Of a stretch of 49,955 nucleotides of DNA, positions 13,001 to 25,540 are shown in pieces. Location: positions 1 to 49,955 of the forward strand of contig JAFUUL010000112.1 in NCBI GenBank assembly GCA_017483805.1, written 5' to 3'. Made by a program: the position numbers and the translations under genes. Origin of the DNA: Prevotella sp. (GTDB taxonomy: Bacteria > Bacteroidota > Bacteroidia > Bacteroidales > Bacteroidaceae). Positions within the stretch are counted from its first letter, which is position 1, and every line of letters begins with the position of its first letter. Under the pieces are notes generated by a model. That model was not told the origin of the DNA. It was given only the letters and a program-made list of their open reading frames with translations, and made no database searches.

Positions 13001-13761
13001 CTGTGCTGACGGAGATGCCCGACGGTGAACTGTGGCTCTTCTATAAGGTGGGCGTGAACGTGGCCGGCTGGACGGGCTGGCTCACGAAGTCGAAGGACGG
13101 CGGCCGCACCTGGGGCAAGCCCGAACGGCTGCCCGAAGGCTTCCTCGGTCCCATCAAGAACAAGCCGCTCCTGCTGGGCGACCGGCTGCTCTGCGGCTCC
13201 AGCACCGAGGGCCACGGCTGGCGCTTCCATGTGGAGATCTACAACCTGAAGACGAAGGAATGGAAGTACATAGGGCCCATCGAGTCGACACTCGCTCCAC
13301 CCACGCTGACGCCCGACACGCTGACCCCCATCGACTGCATACAGCCCTCGTTCCTGCAACTGAAGGACGGCCGACTGCAGGTGCTGATGCGCTCGCGCAA
13401 CGGCTTCCTGGCCACCAGCACCAGCAGCGATCAGGGCGAGACCTGGACCCCCGTCACGCTGACCGACATCCCCAACAACCAGTCGGGCACCGATGCGCTG
13501 ACCCTGCGTGACGGTCGCCACGTGCTCATCTACAACAACTTCCAGACGATAGCAGGCACCAAGAAGGGCCCGCGCTCGCCGCTGAGCATCGCCGTCAGCG
13601 AGGACGATGGCCGTTCGTGGCAGCACGTGCTGACGCTGGAGGATAGTCCGGTAGGCGAGTTCTCCTATCCCGCCATCATCCAAGGCCGCGACGGCACGCT
13701 GCATTGCACCTATACCTGGCAGCGCAAGCGAGTGGCCTACAAGCAAGTGAGATTGCCGTAA
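10093..13761 (+). CDS. GH78 alpha-L-rhamnosidase fused to a C-terminal sialidase-fold (BNR/Asp-box) domain
   Basis: A 1222-residue exported protein (signal peptide about 1-23, ending VAQA). Residues about 25-890 have the GH78 architecture: N-terminal beta domains, an ETTTFDFGQNMAGWVS region near 345, then the six-hairpin barrel. The barrel has DCPQRNERQPWLGD (471-484) with E477 as candidate acid and ATTIWELWNGD with E768 as candidate base. Residues about 894-1222 form a second domain like predicted neuraminidases (COG4692), with three Asp boxes: SKDGGRTW (1000), SSDQGETW (1111) and SEDDGRSW (1169). It also has RSRNG and GEFSYPAI, which could supply sialidase-type Arg and Tyr/Glu residues. GH78 domains release alpha-L-rhamnose. 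Sialidase-fold enzymes release ulosonic acids such as Neu5Ac, Kdo or Dha. In RG-II side chain C rhamnose is linked to Kdo, so one protein could strip both; that is inference. The ATG at 10099 is an alternative start. Confidence 0.85.
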   Translation: MPMKSHKMMATMLLLCFALVAQAKVSVTGLKVENMVEPMGLGTAEPRFSWQTESDEQGVVQTGYELVVESDGKTLWNTGRIASGEQLWIAYRGKPLKSNQHCTWRVKVYTNRGATEWSGAERFSIGLLGETNWGGRWIGLERLMPGEAASTTHSRLAARYLRKTFAVNKPVRRGTAYVAGLGLYRFYVNGTEVGGTDVLKPVPSDYRKTIYYNTYDITSLCSVADSMTVGITLGNGKYFAPRQDKPYKNAVFGLPKCRMNIIVEYADGTSQRLVTDETWQVSADGPIRANNEYDGEEYDARLEPSNWQPAQRTSIPQGTLRAQPMPCMTSRDATPYRKVSPTGETTTFDFGQNMAGWVSFLPQGQAGDTIRVRYAERLNADGSLYVDNLRDARSEDIYICNGHDTEWHPSFVYHGFRYVEITGPAVNVKAWPIQDMMEETGRFECSDTKLNKVVTNARWGIRSNYKGLPVDCPQRNERQPWLGDRTMGALGESFLFGNERLYTKWMRDICEAQREDGCIPDVAPAFWNYYTDDVTWPAALPFICDMLWQQYGNDEALRLWYPNIRRWLHHIMDTYTSKDGLITKDKYGDWCMPPERLNLIHSEDPARKTDGTLIATAYTIRCLQLAEQFARQQDLPDDAGYWQKRREIMTADFNRRFLHVSMNSSQRPGHPLYPDSTFYDNNTATANLLPLAFGIVPDTLRQEVAKQVVENIIVGNKGHVSSGVIGISWLMRTLSDCGYPEVAWLLATQKTYPSWGYMAEQGATTIWELWNGDHANPAMNSANHVMLLGDLLTWCYQYLAGIRLPGSVCCDSIAAYRTITLAPAFAIDGCDWVKADYDTPYGHMKSHWRKTLQHLDWQVTIPCNTTAELHFPDGSVKTVGSGSYDFSVDIPTADPRIVKDEFLYEDAPFASPHASTIVETRKGELVAAYFGGTYERNPDCNIWVNIKGRDGRWSAPILAADGDGVACWNPVLTEMPDGELWLFYKVGVNVAGWTGWLTKSKDGGRTWGKPERLPEGFLGPIKNKPLLLGDRLLCGSSTEGHGWRFHVEIYNLKTKEWKYIGPIESTLAPPTLTPDTLTPIDCIQPSFLQLKDGRLQVLMRSRNGFLATSTSSDQGETWTPVTLTDIPNNQSGTDALTLRDGRHVLIYNNFQTIAGTKKGPRSPLSIAVSEDDGRSWQHVLTLEDSPVGEFSYPAIIQGRDGTLHCTYTWQRKRVAYKQVRLP

Positions 13762-13831
13762 GCAAACCCCGAGTTTCCTCCGTGGAAACTCGGGGTTTGC
13801 TTCGTCCAAACTACCAGTTTGCTTACGGCAA
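13753..13831. terminator. Bidirectional terminator with two competing inverted repeats
   Basis: Between two convergent genes lies a perfect 17-bp stem (13762-13778 with 13784-13800, 5-nt loop). An outer perfect 15-bp inverted repeat (TTGCCGTAAGCAAAC at 13753-13767, its complement at 13817-13831) shares GCAAAC with the inner stem, so both cannot form fully at once. No long T-run follows on either strand, but position and stem strength support termination or 3'-end protection for both genes. Confidence 0.75.
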
Positions 13832-13832
13832 A

Positions 13833-16196
13833 CTAATAGACATAAATCTTGAAGTCTTTCACAGAGCCCGGGGCACCCTGCTCAGCGCGGGGCAGATACT
13901 CCAGGGCGCTGATGGTCTGCTCGCTGCCCAGGTCGATGACGAGGAGGTGAGGCATGGATGCGCCCTTCTCCGTCTGCCAGTAGGTAGACTCCTGCAGGTC
14001 GAAGACCTTGTCGCCGGTGTGGTTGCCGTTCTCTTCCTCGCTGTTGGCGTACTTCGTCGTCCACGGCTCGCGGGAGATGCGCTGGCCCTTTTCGTTCTGC
14101 AGGTAGAGTTCGGCGATGGCCACGCGGTCGTTGGGCTTCTGTGTCGAGAGGCACTCGATGGCGAGGTAGCGGCCTTTGGCTGGTGCAGCAAACTTGAAAG
14201 TCTGCCAACCGTTGCCGGGGACGGCTGTAGTACAGCCGTTTACGGAACCTGCTACGGCGATGGGGGTAGCCGAGTTGAGGTCGGGCTTGTCGCCGATGTT
14301 GTTGTGCTTGTTGCTCTTCTCCAGTTGCAGTTTGTTCAGTTCAGGCTCAGCCTGGCCCCAGACCACAGCCTCCTTCGGGCCGACCACATCGAGCACGATA
14401 ACCTCGTTCTTGCCCTTCTTCAGCCAGCAGCCGGGCACATAGAGCGTCTGCTGCGGGCCGATGCTCCAGATGCGGCCCATGGCGTGGCCGTTCACCCAGA
14501 CCTGCCCCTTGCCCCATGTCTCGAAGTTGAGGAAGGTGTCGCCCACCTTTTTTAGGTTGAAGTAGCCACGATAATAACCGGCCTTCTCGCCGCACATAAT
14601 TCTGGGGTCTATCTTCTTCTGGATGCTGAGCGCTTTTTGGGCGTGCTCGTAACTATCGGGGATAAGCGATATCTGCCACTGCTTCAAATCGTAGGTCAGT
14701 TCATGGCCCTGACTCTCAGTCTGGAGCGTCACGCGGTCGGTAATGCCCTTGAAGTCTTTGATGGCGCGTCCGAAGTTAATGCGACCCATAGCCTCGATGA
14801 GGATGGACAGTTGCTGGCCTTCATGGGTGGCGGGCAGCGTGAGGCTCTTCTCGTTTTTCACTCGGTCTATCTTGCCTATATATTTGCCGTCGATATATAC
14901 CTGAGCGAAGTCGTGACAATCGTTGATGGTAAGTAGCGAGGGACCATCGGTCTGAGGCAGTGTGGTGCGGTAAATGGCTGACCCCCAACCCATATCGCGC
15001 TCTTCAAAGGTCTTCACATCGCGGCTCCATTCCGTTTGTGATGCACCGCAGAGGATATTGTGGAACTCCGTGAGTTCAAACTTCGGCACGGTGATGATGG
15101 GCATTGGAGCCTTGGGAACGGCGGGCATCTTCTTGCCGTCGTTGTATTTCGCCATCATCTCGCGCAGTTCCCAGAACTTCGGGGTGGCCTGGCCGTACTC
15201 GTTGATGGGGGCATCGTAGTCATAGGAGGTAACGTCGGGCGCAAAGCCGGGGCTGTTGGCGCCAGCCCAGTGGCCGAACGACGTGCCGCCGTGGGTCATG
15301 TAGAGCGAGAAGGAGATGCCCTTCGAGAGCATTTCGTCCATACCGGCCACCATATCCTTGGCGGGACGCGTCTCGTGGCGGGCGCCCCACTTGTCGAACC
15401 AGCCGCTCCAGAACTCCGAGCACATCTTCGGAGCGTTGGGGCGCAGTTCACCAAGGCGACGGAACTGCTGGTCGATGTTGGCGCCCGTACCGAAGTTCAT
15501 CGTCCACGTCAGGTCGTCGAGGCCGTTCTTCGTGAAGTTAGAAGACCAGTCGCATTGGAACAAACTAACCTCCTTGCCATAAATGGAACGGAGGCAATCG
15601 CGGATTTCGCTGACGTAGGGCTTATCCTCGCCATACGAGCCATACTCGTTCTCCACCTGAATCATGATGATGGGGCCGCCGTTCTGGATGGTCAGCGGGG
15701 CCAACTGCTCGCCTACCTTCTCCTCGAAAATCTTCACACGCTCCATGAAGTAAGGATCGCGCTCGCGCAGACGGATGTCTTTCTTCTTCAGCAGCCACCA
15801 AGGCAGACCGCCCATTTCCCACTCGGCACAGACGTAGGGACCGGGGCGCACGATGACGTACATACCGTTCTTCTGCGCCAGTCGGCAGAACTCGGCCACG
15901 TCGTTGTTGCCCGTGAAGTCGAACTGGCCCTCACGCTGCTCGTGGATGTTCCAGAAAATGTAGATGCACACGGCATTCATGCCCAGCGCACGGCACATCT
16001 GGATGCGGTGCTCCCAATAGGGGCGCGGGATGCGGGGATAGTGCACTTCGGCGGCTTTCACCACAAAGGGCTCACCGTTCAGCAGGAATGTCTTGTCGCC
16101 CGTTGTAAAGGTTCCGGGCTTCGTGGCCGCCTGCATGAGGGCAGGCACCATCAGCAGCAGGGCTGTCAGGGTCAGGTTTTTCAGTAGTTTCTTCAT
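13833..16196 (-). CDS. GH35 beta-galactosidase with C-terminal discoidin-like domain
   Basis: A 787-residue exported enzyme; signal peptide about 1-22 (MKKLLKNLTLTALLLMVPAL start). The GH35 barrel carries the Tyr/Trp-rich GMNAVCIYIFWNIHE, acid/base E184 in VENEYGSYG and nucleophile E261 in CSEFWSGWFDKWG. Jelly-roll domains follow, with GKGQVWVNGHAMGRIWSIGPQ near 575. The last about 140 residues (SATPIAVAGS onward, with LLVIDLGSEQTISALEYLPR) form an F5/8-type C carbohydrate-binding fold. The enzyme would remove terminal beta-galactose from pectin or arabinogalactan fragments in the periplasm; the exact glycan is inferred. ATG 16196 is chosen because longer starts lie inside the GH30 gene and lack a signal peptide. 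It starts 5 nt after the GH30 stop, so the two form an operon. Confidence 0.92.
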   Translation of the reverse strand: MKKLLKNLTLTALLLMVPALMQAATKPGTFTTGDKTFLLNGEPFVVKAAEVHYPRIPRPYWEHRIQMCRALGMNAVCIYIFWNIHEQREGQFDFTGNNDVAEFCRLAQKNGMYVIVRPGPYVCAEWEMGGLPWWLLKKKDIRLRERDPYFMERVKIFEEKVGEQLAPLTIQNGGPIIMIQVENEYGSYGEDKPYVSEIRDCLRSIYGKEVSLFQCDWSSNFTKNGLDDLTWTMNFGTGANIDQQFRRLGELRPNAPKMCSEFWSGWFDKWGARHETRPAKDMVAGMDEMLSKGISFSLYMTHGGTSFGHWAGANSPGFAPDVTSYDYDAPINEYGQATPKFWELREMMAKYNDGKKMPAVPKAPMPIITVPKFELTEFHNILCGASQTEWSRDVKTFEERDMGWGSAIYRTTLPQTDGPSLLTINDCHDFAQVYIDGKYIGKIDRVKNEKSLTLPATHEGQQLSILIEAMGRINFGRAIKDFKGITDRVTLQTESQGHELTYDLKQWQISLIPDSYEHAQKALSIQKKIDPRIMCGEKAGYYRGYFNLKKVGDTFLNFETWGKGQVWVNGHAMGRIWSIGPQQTLYVPGCWLKKGKNEVIVLDVVGPKEAVVWGQAEPELNKLQLEKSNKHNNIGDKPDLNSATPIAVAGSVNGCTTAVPGNGWQTFKFAAPAKGRYLAIECLSTQKPNDRVAIAELYLQNEKGQRISREPWTTKYANSEEENGNHTGDKVFDLQESTYWQTEKGASMPHLLVIDLGSEQTISALEYLPRAEQGAPGSVKDFKIYVY

Positions 16197-22229: not shown

Positions 22230-23027
22230 ATGACAGACATCATCTCCAGTGCACAGAACCCACGGGTCAAGCGCCTGCTGACCCTTCAGCAGAAGTCTTC
22301 CGAGCGGCGGAAGACGGGCCTCTTTGTGGTTGAGGGCCGGCGCGAACTGGAGCATTGTCTGGCGGCCGGCTATGAGGCCGACACCATCTTTGTCAGCGAA
22401 GAGCGCTTCGACGAGCAGAGTCCTGCCTTGCGGGAAGCCTTTGCTGGCACTCCGCTTGTCACGCTCCATCCGTCGCTCTATGAGCGCGTGGCCTATCGTG
22501 GCGGCACCGAAGGCGTCATCGCCATCGTCAGGGCCCGCCCGCTGACGCTCGCCGATCTCCGCCTGCCGGAGCATCCTCTCATCGTCGTGCTCGAGAGCGT
22601 CGAGAAGCCCGGCAACCTGGGGGCCATCCTCCGTTCGGCCGATGCCGCACGTGCCGATGCCGTCATCGTCTGCGATCCCCTGACCGACCTCTACAACCCC
22701 AACCTCATCCGCAGCAGCATCGGTGCCATCTTCACCGTGCCCTGCGTGGCCTGCACCTCTGCTGAGTGCATCGCTTTCCTGCAGCAGCGTGGCATCCGCA
22801 TCCTCACGGCCCAGTTGCAGGACTCCCATCTCTACTACGACATCGACATGACTCTCGGCACCGCCCTCGTCATGGGCACCGAGTCCACGGGTCTCACCCC
22901 CCAATGGCGCCAGGCCGCCGATGCCCATATCCGCATCCCCATGCTTGGTCGCCTCGATTCCCTCAACGTCTCCGTCAGCACCGCCATCCTCCTCTTCGAG
23001 GCCGTCCGCCAGCGTCATGCTGAGTGA
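22230..23027 (+). CDS. SpoU/TrmH-family RNA 2'-O-methyltransferase
   Basis: A 265-residue SPOUT methyltransferase using S-adenosylmethionine. The N-terminal substrate-binding domain begins SSAQNPRVKRLLTLQ and contains TGLFVVEGRRELEHCL. The knotted catalytic domain has the three SpoU motifs: EKPGNLGAILRSADA, then NPNLIRSSIGAIFTVP, then MGTESTGLT followed by IRIPMLGRLDSLNVSVSTAI. The target (rRNA or tRNA, RlmB- or TrmH-like) cannot be assigned from sequence. It starts 13 bp after the rpsT terminator, and its own terminator overlaps its stop codon. Confidence 0.9.
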   Translation: MTDIISSAQNPRVKRLLTLQQKSSERRKTGLFVVEGRRELEHCLAAGYEADTIFVSEERFDEQSPALREAFAGTPLVTLHPSLYERVAYRGGTEGVIAIVRARPLTLADLRLPEHPLIVVLESVEKPGNLGAILRSADAARADAVIVCDPLTDLYNPNLIRSSIGAIFTVPCVACTSAECIAFLQQRGIRILTAQLQDSHLYYDIDMTLGTALVMGTESTGLTPQWRQAADAHIRIPMLGRLDSLNVSVSTAILLFEAVRQRHAE

Positions 23028-23047
23028 CGCTCAGAATAGCATTTTTT
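23017..23047 (+). terminator. Terminator overlapping the stop of the SpoU methyltransferase
   Basis: CTGAG-tgacg-CTCAG (23020-23034), enclosed by ATGCT/AGCAT (23017-23021, 23038-23042), followed by six T. The stop codon TGA (23025-23027) sits in the loop. Confidence 0.7.
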
Positions 23048-23078
23048 GCCCGGCGATGAAAAATTGTCGGCCAAAAAC

Positions 23079-23109
23079 TTGCATTTGCCTTCATTTTTTT
23101 GTATCTTTG
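23079..23109 (+). promoter_or_regulatory. Complete promoter in the gap upstream of gyrB
   Basis: TTG (23079-23081), a 20-nt spacer and TATCTTTG (23102-23109). Transcription would begin near 23115 and enter a 16-residue ORF and a large inverted repeat. It lies about 400 bp before the gyrB promoter. Confidence 0.65.
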
Positions 23110-23128
23110 CAGTGTGAAAGGTGAGGAG

Positions 23129-23179
23129 ATGATAGCCATGCGGCTCATAGCGACAAAAAAGACCATGAAGAAGCGATGA
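23129..23179 (+). CDS. Possible 16-residue basic peptide (small ORF)
   Basis: ATG to TGA, MIAMRLIATKKTMKKR. It begins about 14 nt after the expected transcript start from the 23079-23109 promoter. GAGGAG directly precedes the ATG, which is unusual in an organism that mostly lacks Shine-Dalgarno sites. Its stop abuts the inverted-repeat element. It could be a leader peptide, part of a mobile element, or chance. No homology is recognised. Confidence 0.3.
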   Translation: MIAMRLIATKKTMKKR

Positions 23180-23290
23180 CAGGTGACAGATGACAGATGT
23201 ATTCTGAAAAAGTGCTCGCGTACCGCGCGCGCACGCGGTACGCGCGTAAGATATTTTAAAAAACATCTGTCATCTGTCACATCTGTCATC
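23175..23290. repeat. 116-bp inverted-repeat element with GC-only inner palindrome
   Basis: The outer arms (23175-23200 and 23263-23290) are reverse complements except for one 2-nt indel. Each arm is built from about 7-bp steps (GATGACA on the left, CATCTGT on the right). In the middle is a perfect 11-bp palindrome CGCGTACCGCG/CGCGGTACGCG (23217-23227, 23234-23244) with loop CGCGCA. No transposase gene or obvious target-site duplication is present. The design suggests a MITE- or REP-like non-autonomous element, or an unusual structured transcript. Confidence 0.75.
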
Positions 23291-23326
23291 TAAGGGTGCT
23301 CCGAACGTCATCTTCGACACTAAACG

Positions 23327-23458
23327 ATGGTACTTTAGGGAGTAAGGTATGGCACTTTACCAGGGTAAAGTCCTATCGGAACGAGTCCGACTTCCCATCG
23401 GAACGGGCCTTACTCCCCATCGGAACGACCCCTATTTCCCATCGGAACGACCCAAAAG
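23327..23458 (+). repeat. Six-unit array with exact 22-bp period upstream of gyrB
   Basis: Units start at 23327, 23349, 23371, 23393, 23415 and 23437. Units 1-2 share ATGGyACTTTA; units 3-6 share yCCyATCGGAACG. The conserved core ATCGGAACG recurs at 23375, 23397, 23419 and 23441 in strict 22-bp phase. Two internal symmetries are also present: CTTTACC-ag-GGTAAAG in unit 2, and GGGAGTAAGG (23338-23347) complementary to 23408-23417. The array ends 20 bp before the gyrB -33 element. The 22-bp phase places the cores on the same face of the helix. Confidence 0.85.
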
Positions 23459-23477
23459 AAAAAATAACCTTTTTTCT

Positions 23478-23508
23478 TTTGCTTTTTGCTCTTTTTTTTG
23501 TACCTTTG
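23478..23508 (+). promoter_or_regulatory. gyrB promoter
   Basis: TTTG (23478-23481), a 19-nt spacer and TACCTTTG (23501-23508). The gyrB ATG at 23567 leaves a leader of about 50 nt. Confidence 0.8.
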
Positions 23509-23566: not shown

Positions 23567-25540
23567 ATGGCAGAAGATTTACAGCAAGAACAACAAAACT
23601 ATTCCGCGAGTAACATTCAGGTGCTCGAGGGACTGGAGGCCGTGCGTAAGCGCCCGGCTATGTACATCGGCGATATCAGTGAGAAGGGTTTGCACCACCT
23701 GGTGAACGAGACCGTCGACAACTCGATTGACGAGGCGATGGCCGGCTTTTGCACGCACATCGAGGTGACCATCAACGAAGATAATTCCATCACCGTGCAG
23801 GACAACGGTCGCGGTATTCCCGTAGACGAGCACGAGAAGATGCACAAGAGTGCCCTGGAGGTGGTGATGACCGTGCTGCACGCCGGCGGTAAGTTCGACA
23901 AGGGCTCCTATAAGGTGTCTGGCGGTCTGCACGGCGTGGGCGTCTCGTGCGTCAACGCCCTGTCTACCCATATGCTGTCGCAGGTGTTCCGCGATGGCAA
24001 GATCTACCAGCAGGAGTACGAGAAAGGCAAGCCCCTCTACCCCGTCAAGGTGGTGGGCGAGACCGATCTGCGCGGCACGCGCCAGCAGTTCTGGCCCGAC
24101 GGCACCATCTTTACCACTACAGAATATAAGTATGACATCATAGCCAAGCGTATGCGCGAACTGGCCTACCTGAATGCCGGCATCACCATCACGCTGAAGG
24201 ATATGCGTCCCGACGAGGAGGGCAACCTGCGCGAAGAGGTGTTCCACGCCAAGGAGGGCCTGAAGGAGTTCGTGCGCTACGTGGACCGCCACCGCACCCA
24301 TCTGTTCGACGACGTGATCTATCTGAAGACCGAGAAGCAGGGCGTGCCCATCGAGGTGGCCGTGATGTACAACACGGACTACACGGAGAATATCCACTCC
24401 TATGTGAACAATATCAACACCATCGAGGGCGGCACCCATCTGGTGGGCTTCCGCATGGCACTGACGCGTACCCTGAAGAAGTATGCCGATGCCGACCCGC
24501 AGATATCGAAGCAGATTGAGAAGGCCAAGATAGAGATTGCCGGCGAGGATTTCCGCGAGGGCTTGACAGCCGTCATCTCCATCAAGGTGGCTGAGCCGCA
24601 GTTTGAGGGCCAGACGAAGACCAAGTTGGGCAACTCGGAGGTGGCCGGTGCCGTGCAGCAAGCCGTGGGCGAAGCGCTGACCAACTATCTGGAGGAGCAC
24701 CCGAAGGAGGCCAAACTGATCTGCGACAAGGTGGTGCTGGCTGCCACGGCGCGTATCGCCGCCCGCAAGGCCCGCGAGAGCGTGCAGCGCAAGAACCCCA
24801 TGAGTGGCGGCGGTCTGCCCGGCAAGTTGGCTGACTGCTCCAACAAGGATCCGAAGAACTGCGAGATATTCCTCGTCGAGGGTGACTCGGCAGGCGGCAG
24901 CGCCAAGCAGGGCCGCGACCGCCACTTCCAGGCCATCCTGCCCTTGCGCGGAAAGATTCTGAACGTGGAGAAGGTACAGTGGCACCGTGTGTTCGAGGCT
25001 GAGTCGGTGATGAATATCATCCAATCCATCGGCGTGCGCTTCGGCGTGGAAGGCGAGGGCGACCGCGAGGCCAATATCGACAAGTTGCGCTACGACAAGA
25101 TTATCATCATGACCGATGCCGACGTCGATGGCTCTCACATCGACACGCTCATCATGACGCTCTTCTATCGCTTCATGCCCCAGGTCATCCAGGGCGGGCA
25201 CCTCTACATTGCCACGCCGCCGCTCTACAAGTGCACCTATAAGAAGGTCTCAGAGTACTGCTACACCGAGCAGCAGCGCCAGATGTTCATCGACAAGTAT
25301 GTGGCTGGCGACGAGAACAGCAGCGCCCTGCACACGCAGCGCTACAAAGGTCTGGGTGAGATGAACCCCGAGCAACTCTGGGAGACGACCATGAATCCCG
25401 AGAACCGTCTGCTGAAGCAGGTGACCATTGAGAATGCCGCTGAGGCTGACGAGATATTCTCGATGCTGATGGGCGACGACGTGGAGCCCCGCCGTGAGTT
25501 CATCGAGAAGAACGCCACCTACGCCAATATCGACGCATAA
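23567..25540 (+). CDS. gyrB: DNA gyrase subunit B
   Basis: A 657-residue GyrB, the ATPase half of the A2B2 gyrase that introduces negative supercoils. The GHKL ATPase domain has NETVDNSIDEA (Mg-binding Asn and Glu), VQDNGRGIPV and GGLHGVGVSCVNAL. The transducer domain follows, then the TOPRIM domain with EGDSAGGSAKQGRDR, DADVDGSHI and the QRYKGLGEMNPEQLW region. Length fits the short Bacteroidota form without the proteobacterial insertion. gyrA is not in the window. A 22-bp phased array and a promoter lie upstream, and a bidirectional terminator follows the stop by 20 bp. Confidence 0.97.
   Translation: MAEDLQQEQQNYSASNIQVLEGLEAVRKRPAMYIGDISEKGLHHLVNETVDNSIDEAMAGFCTHIEVTINEDNSITVQDNGRGIPVDEHEKMHKSALEVVMTVLHAGGKFDKGSYKVSGGLHGVGVSCVNALSTHMLSQVFRDGKIYQQEYEKGKPLYPVKVVGETDLRGTRQQFWPDGTIFTTTEYKYDIIAKRMRELAYLNAGITITLKDMRPDEEGNLREEVFHAKEGLKEFVRYVDRHRTHLFDDVIYLKTEKQGVPIEVAVMYNTDYTENIHSYVNNINTIEGGTHLVGFRMALTRTLKKYADADPQISKQIEKAKIEIAGEDFREGLTAVISIKVAEPQFEGQTKTKLGNSEVAGAVQQAVGEALTNYLEEHPKEAKLICDKVVLAATARIAARKARESVQRKNPMSGGGLPGKLADCSNKDPKNCEIFLVEGDSAGGSAKQGRDRHFQAILPLRGKILNVEKVQWHRVFEAESVMNIIQSIGVRFGVEGEGDREANIDKLRYDKIIIMTDADVDGSHIDTLIMTLFYRFMPQVIQGGHLYIATPPLYKCTYKKVSEYCYTEQQRQMFIDKYVAGDENSSALHTQRYKGLGEMNPEQLWETTMNPENRLLKQVTIENAAEADEIFSMLMGDDVEPRREFIEKNATYANIDA

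Follow-up and report, generated by a model that had tools for sequence, protein, structure and literature searches.

A mirror-symmetric array of 22-bp units upstream of gyrB in a Prevotella genome is one stand-alone copy of an array family dispersed over intergenic DNA, and it is probably no special gyrase switch. It belongs to a class of Prevotella arrays in which the period is fixed at 22 bp, corresponding to two DNA turns, and the unit sequences differ. Members of this class are linked to a gene for a small HTH-like protein. With moderate confidence, we predict from sequence comparisons that this HTH family binds to the arrays and that the copy upstream of gyrB is a dispersed, stand-alone representative.

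An unbroken 22-bp phase in a mirror-symmetric array

The window, by which we mean the whole analysed stretch of 49,955 nucleotides, contains the array together with the features listed in Table 1. Reading of the sequence gave eight units on the forward strand with every spacing at 22 bp. A previous sequence-only reading had described six units of two types, with two and four copies, in strict 22-bp phase. The phase is exact, and the two types were recovered as ATGGNACTTTA, present without mismatch at 23327 and 23349, and ATCGGAACG, present without mismatch at 23375, 23397, 23419 and 23441; the six units are real, but the extent was underestimated by two further units to the left (starting at 23287 and 23309). 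ATCGGAACG has no further exact match in the window, and the nine matches obtained when one mismatch is allowed are not above chance. Since this 9-mer count is at chance level, the unusual feature is the spacing. Tandem Repeats Finder reported a period of 22 with a score of 104 and 0% indels for 23371-23450, and the pattern ATCGGAACG-N13-ATCGGAACG occurred four times in the whole genome, three times inside the window array, compared to no match of the reversed control. The left and right units are oppositely oriented, indicating a mirror array and not a plain tandem array; fuller copies read ...CATCTTCGG... in the left units and ...CCGAAGATG... in the right units.

Table 1. Position of the array, its parts and neighbouring features in the window
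Feature	Position	Strand	Basis or remark
Mirror-symmetric array	23287..23453	+	Unit starts 23287, 23309, 23331, 23353, 23375, 23397, 23419, 23441
Central dyad ACTTTACCAGGGTAAAGT, mirror centre of the array	23354..23371	.	Sequence; copies compared
Right arm, four units with core ATCGGAACG	23375..23453	+	The dnaA copy in the same genome has two
AGGTATGGCACTTTA, one mismatch from AAGTATGGCACTT	23345..23359	+	AAGTATGGCACTT is an element upstream of HTH genes in other Prevotella
gyrB	23567..25540	+	Annotation
TACCTTTG, which we presume to be the gyrB -7 box	23501..23508	+	Same letters in G142
SpoU-family RNA methylase gene, upstream of the array	22230..23027	+	Annotation
TATCTTTG, taken by us as a Bacteroidota-type -7 box, within a recurrent promoter-like stretch	23102..23109	+	Sequence, genome copies
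Inverted-repeat element, TGACAGATG-type arms around GTACCGCGCGCGCACGCGGTACGC	23175..23290	.	Genome comparison
Second array of 22-bp period, GTTTGCTTCGTCCAAAC-type unit	13744..13864	.	Between convergent alpha-L-rhamnosidase and GH35 beta-galactosidase genes

Two recurrent stretches lie between the methylase gene and the array. The promoter-like stretch at 23029-23170 combines the inverted repeat TTTTTGCCCGACAAT with the TATCTTTG box and a short open frame, and it is present in several copies in the source genome (C126:23669-23798, C101:19798 and C94:2950). The adjacent inverted-repeat element (23175-23290) is dispersed as well, with short direct repeats of the TGACAGATG type as arms and a GTACCGCG...CGCGGTACGC core; further copies were found at C40:11510-11623, at C27:44572-44771 and on C197 near 50799-50926. 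Elements resembling it accompany some other array copies and are located upstream of some HTH genes. At the gyrA locus, its arm repeats change jointly in both arms between the source genome and its nearest relative, G142.

The period is the constant feature

Arrays independent of the known family copies, which were excluded from the scanned stretches, were recorded by their best repeat lag between 10 and 60. A 66-bp window had to contain 38 or more matches and to pass a complexity filter, and genes were called by a simple codon-based method; the thresholds (38 of 66, and 27 of 44) were set by us. In 395 kb from the source genome, mostly on contigs with family copies elsewhere, 9 of 12 non-coding arrays had a lag of 22 or 44 (eight and one, respectively), and three had other lags. 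Among 85 non-coding arrays in 1.2 Mb from 27 other Prevotella genomes, 30 had a lag of 22 (25) or 44 (5), 19 a lag of 21, some of which may be missed genes, and 4 a lag of 42, with the rest spread over other values. Three of these genomes (G265, G213 and G269) had entered the scan because the CGGAACGA-pair pattern described below matched there, and without them 18 arrays with lag 22 are left. Four non-coding arrays were detected in 400 kb from 11 genomes of other Bacteroidales families, none of them at 21, 22, 42 or 44, and lags of 22 and 44 were absent from the coding arrays of all three sets. The unit sequences are mostly unrelated from array to array. Unit palindromy was on average 5.88 of 8 pairs compared to 4.81 after shuffling, and it was dropped as a defining feature because it was singly significant in 7 of 33 arrays. 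One species (G360) carries several 21- and 42-bp arrays of the TTACGAAATTATCTC type (L205-L209) and seemingly uses 21 instead of 22 bp.

Arrays adjoin genes for a small HTH-like protein

Several arrays of the family are directly preceded by a gene for an HTH-like protein of about 60 residues. In the source genome, two of three copies of this gene (L275 and L283) are followed by a family array directly after the stop codon, and the third has directly before it an array of TTTGAAGCCTCCAAAC, which is the other array type common in the source genome. The same arrangement as at L275 and L283 was found at one of two HTH loci in G142, where the other is cut by a contig end, and all five HTH matches in G213 were followed by a GGAACG array, two of the five being cut by contig ends. 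Searched with a profile built from three HTH sequences, 200 genus genomes gave 81 matches to the gene, spread over 48 genomes. The best-scoring part of these matches provided 30 HTH loci, 28 of them new. An array with lag 22 or 44 was present within 420 bp at 21 of the 28 new loci, eleven times upstream and ten times downstream, compared to 53 of 993 ordinary genes; near small genes the frequency was 3 of 94. The binomial p of 1.5e-21 for this linkage is too small because the HTH loci share descent. In the same scan, 10 of 18 earlier HTH loci from eight genomes had a 22/44 array, a count that misses the plain arrays at L275 and L283; no such array was registered at 7 of the 28 new and 8 of the 18 earlier loci. 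Among individual species, the scan returned 22/44 arrays at the HTH loci of G265 and G269 and at one of three in G198; it registered none at either locus of G298 or at that of G007. The unit sequences differ among HTH loci.

Searches with the HTH protein against Pfam, NCBIfam and PHROG yielded nothing above or near the cut-off. DUF4248 (PF14053) scored 13.2 and 13.6 bits, below the Pfam cut-off of 27, and a comparison with Xis-like excisionases gave a weak match to PHROG 1553 (E 0.12) and one PDB match (E 0.37) that is not credible. The HTH label itself is thus based on weak matches. None of 27 pattern stretches in viral contigs was confirmed as a relative, nor was any relative confirmed in plasmids. 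A role as defense system was rejected, given that PADLOC returned a weak match to mad1 (20 bits) and nothing more.

At the annotated loci, the HTH gene adjoins genes for primases or VapE-like helicases and often also HU-HIG and amidase genes. Seven loci were annotated, and seven proteins from four loci were scanned for domains: VapE-like helicase domains occur in the clusters at L275 and L309, a CHC2 zinc finger with DUF6371 at L314, DUF6371 at L288, HU-HIG at L309 and L288 and an amidase at L314. The locus L275 on contig C164 of the source genome combines VapE, HTH and array, and no HU-HIG or amidase ORF was present within its 1.5 kb flank. For the alternative that HU-HIG and not HTH is the gene linked to the arrays, the sampled stretches (1.6 Mb) offer a single HU-HIG-like gene, which has no 22/44 array beside it.

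A shared sequence element connects the HTH loci with the window family. AAGTATGGCACTT, which resembles the left-arm units of this family, has matches with no more than two mismatches at 8 of the 28 new loci, which come from eight other species. These matches lie upstream of the HTH gene, at 44-110 bp from its aligned start, and five of the eight loci have the exact sequence. The element is also found behind HTH genes in the source genome and in G142 (exact) as well as in G213 and G007 (two mismatches). In total, 17 of 45 HTH loci carry it with at most two mismatches, and its density amounts to 0.61 per kb in HTH flanks (21 matches) compared to 0.021 per kb in sampled stretches (34 matches). 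We also compared 21 sampled arrays with the arrays at the HTH loci read from their own genomes. Nine reached a local score of at least 40, a limit that we chose after the scores had been seen, and 12 had no such match. The clearest case is G050, with scores of 66 and 60 compared to at most 26 elsewhere. Some arrays match HTH loci of other species equally well or better: arrays of the TTTGGAGCC type match HTH loci of G298 and G117 too, and a G167 array matches G035 equally.

From the linkage, the shared units and the fixed period, we infer that each HTH protein probably binds the array adjoining its gene in the form of repeated dimers along one DNA face, cooperatively and with two turns per unit. 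The proposal of the sequence-only reading that one protein binds along one DNA face is supported indirectly by the persistence of the 22-bp period despite sequence change and by the linkage of the arrays to a small HTH-like gene. The array at an HTH gene would be an operator or an iteron of the cluster, with the control or start of its own cluster as original role, and stand-alone copies like the one upstream of gyrB would be by-products of copying, in which the array reached other intergenic sites either alone or together with the HTH gene. If this is true, the arrays represent an unusual case in which the ruler is conserved rather than the letters, tied to the gene of a DNA-binding-like protein. 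It would also provide a concrete protein-site pair for testing and a candidate function for the little-known VapE/HTH/HU-HIG/amidase cluster of Bacteroidota. No description of 22-bp arrays in Prevotella was found in the titles and abstract starts that searches of open-licence papers returned, which is weak evidence of absence.

Dispersal and turnover of the family

BLAST of window positions 23029-23470 against the source genome, a fragmented MAG with 7.2% contamination, gave 60 matches at E ≤ 1, of which about 20 were good on the array part. We tabulated 19 array loci, leaving out L027 and L037 as near-identical duplicates of L026 and L035. Two types can be distinguished by eye: type A includes the copies at gyrB, dnaA, gyrA and elsewhere, and several of its members follow an inverted-repeat element with a GTACGCG core, and type B copies are often followed by a second 22-bp array of the TTTGGAGCCTCCAAAC type. 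Among 150 genus genomes, the exact core TAAAGTSCYATCGGAACG is confined to two, with 18 copies in the source genome and 11 in G142; the remaining 148 have none. A genome collection contained 22 stretches matching TAAAGTSCYATCGGAACG, 17 of them titled Prevotella or Prevotellaceae; around the other five, no 22-bp units were seen by eye. The pattern CGGAACGA-N14-CGGAACGA matched at 22 places in 9 of 398 genus genomes, including the source genome, compared to 7 matches in 5 genomes for the reversed control; by eye, mirrored arrays are present at most of the places printed and absent from some, e.g. L155. A long array of about ten 22-bp units by eye with a different unit (CACGGAACGATTTTCGAGGCGG type) was observed at L152 (G300:C1).

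Flanking DNA on at least one side is common to array sites in the source genome and G142 for 10 of the 19 loci. The dnaA arrays of the two species differ by exactly one 22-bp unit, and in the gyrB arrays the last units differ in sequence with the phase kept. In several pairs, the array aligns and part of the flanking intergenic DNA does not. For six unshared copies, empty sites were sought in G142 (79% complete), where one flank was found, and by eye that site carries other 22-bp repeats; no clean empty site or target duplication was seen.

These observations bear on the alternative that the arrays are neutral or selfish minisatellites or MITEs, spread and altered by replication slippage, recombination and a transposase acting in trans, with the 22-bp step originating from the copying mechanism and HTH genes as frequent passengers. 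The many intergenic sites beside unrelated genes and the turnover of units at constant phase are in agreement with such an origin, as are the CGTCATCT...AGATGACG ends, which resemble inverted terminal repeats in some copies and are missing from others (by eye), and the position of several HTH cassettes at contig ends, which is expected for recent near-identical copies. However, ordinary slippage would not be expected to produce a fixed period with unrelated sequences, and a lag of 22, or of 21 in some species, is prominent; moreover, the HTH association is far over background, and no target duplication was seen. We regard this explanation as possible but rather unlikely, and prefer phased binding sites of the HTH family.

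Arrays at gyrB, gyrA and dnaA

Three of the 19 loci in the source genome adjoin gyrB, gyrA or dnaA: besides the window array, one copy is located 5' of a gyrase-A-like gene (PF00521) and one directly 3' of dnaA, which was recognized by its G142 ortholog with PF00308/PF08299. At the latter locus (L042, G000:C40), the dnaA frame of the source genome is broken near its end, around 11230, and open in G142; an assembly error is possible. In a speculative extension that we consider improbable, the arrays would form a diversifying address system, in which the HTH protein of a primase/VapE-HTH-HU-HIG-amidase element reads a private 22-bp-phased array, and array copies spread to host promoters, among them those of gyrA and gyrB, and next to dnaA might couple the selfish element to host supercoiling and replication or let it sense them; the period would be constrained and the sequence free to differ between systems.

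The sequence-only reading had offered three possibilities, namely a supercoiling- or replication-linked operator, an iteron-like site and a genome-wide intergenic repeat family. It had proposed to examine the conservation of the array upstream of gyrB and had regarded arrays scattered over random intergenic places with no promoter association as an argument for a selfish or neutral repeat and against an operator. The third possibility is supported by the many copies next to unrelated genes, an outcome that by this standard speaks against a dedicated operator. Among the 30 best gyrB-match loci, including that of the source genome, 29 had a readable upstream region, and an array was present in three of these (source genome, G142 and G298) and absent from 26, on which grounds a gyrB-specific operator was rejected; in G142 the scan reveals one core only, and the array is plain in the sequence comparison. 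The distance of about 20 bp between the array and the gyrB -33 element is correct for the source genome but not elsewhere, as it is about 60 bp longer in G142, so that both unit content and promoter distance at gyrB differ between the two nearest species.

In a broader version, a regulator would act through the arrays at gyrB, gyrA and dnaA and so keep gyrase in step with the initiation of replication. This version could invoke that all three sites are kept in G142 and the gyrB site also in G298. It is nevertheless highly improbable in view of the array-free gyrB regions and the variable promoter spacing, and because the selection of these genes was post hoc. In addition, at 12 loci of G213, G265, G269, G007 and G198, where some loci were readable on one side, none of gyrA, gyrB and dnaA was seen by eye among the flanking ORFs found; one of these ORFs is ribosomal protein S16-like. 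We make no claim of an association with replication or supercoiling, and the arrays serve as a warning that repeats adjoining gyrB, gyrA and dnaA are not necessarily host operators. Since the array abuts the promoter in the source genome, an effect on gyrB is possible.

Least probable of all is a structured RNA or bidirectional terminator, in which the mirrored arms would form a long hairpin in transcripts: of two copies folded, one of type B is far more stable than its shuffles (z -7.7, with none of 200 as good), and some arrays are located between a TAnnTTTG box and the gene that follows it, in what is presumed to be a leader. Structured RNA as main function was nevertheless rejected because the window copy reached a z of only -1.3 (19 of 200 shuffles as good) and Rfam returned no family at gathering score (the five matches with E ≤ 1 all stayed below it, with only ctRNA_p42d touching the array proper, at its end), and by eye the central stem is broken in several copies that keep the 22-bp phase.

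Comparison with known systems

Iterons and phased operators, with repeats about 22 bp apart, are among the known systems comparable to the Prevotella arrays. The Prevotella repeats have a similar spacing and lie beside genes for a DNA-binding-like protein and for primase-helicase domains; in contrast, they are chromosomal and have many stand-alone copies.

VirE/VapE proteins (PF05272) are described as putative helicases with a connection to the primases of mobile elements (PMC5862659). The annotated HTH clusters correspond to this description in having a VapE-like domain or a CHC2 zinc finger with DUF6371, whereas arrays, HTH genes and HU-HIG genes are not mentioned in the part of that source drawn on here.

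REPINs, which are associated with RAYT transposases, are likewise dispersed extragenic inverted repeats in the proximity of a specific gene (Bertels and Rainey, 2011; PMC3116915), and the repeats of the Prevotella family occur in inverted arrangement in extragenic space. As far as the part of that article used here goes, the differences are that the partner in Prevotella is a small HTH-like gene and not a Y1 transposase, and that the repeats form 22-bp phased arrays with many unrelated sequences. A Y1 transposase (Y1_Tnp, PF01797) is unlikely to be the general partner, since it has only two matches in the source genome; one abuts half an array copy, and the second locus contains a single TTTGAAGCC match. 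At L321 (G000:C106, about 1310-2290), a Y1-transposase element with the ends GGGGACGGTTCTC and GAGAACCGTCCCC starts, judged by eye, at the centre of a seeming family array; in G142, at L058 with a similar upstream flank, the array runs through (by eye).

BrickBuilt of Porphyromonas gingivalis consists of direct repeats of one sequence family, with the 23-nt unit AGAYCATARTATCCTCTCRTRTG, within terminal inverted repeats, and its promoter activity was demonstrated in E. coli (PMC4596501). The 23-nt consensus was not encountered in the Prevotella arrays, which have a period of 22 and another sequence, and the part of PMC4596501 consulted makes no mention of an HTH partner. As far as described there, both systems have in common that tandem repeats of about two DNA turns are part of a dispersed intergenic element of Bacteroidales.
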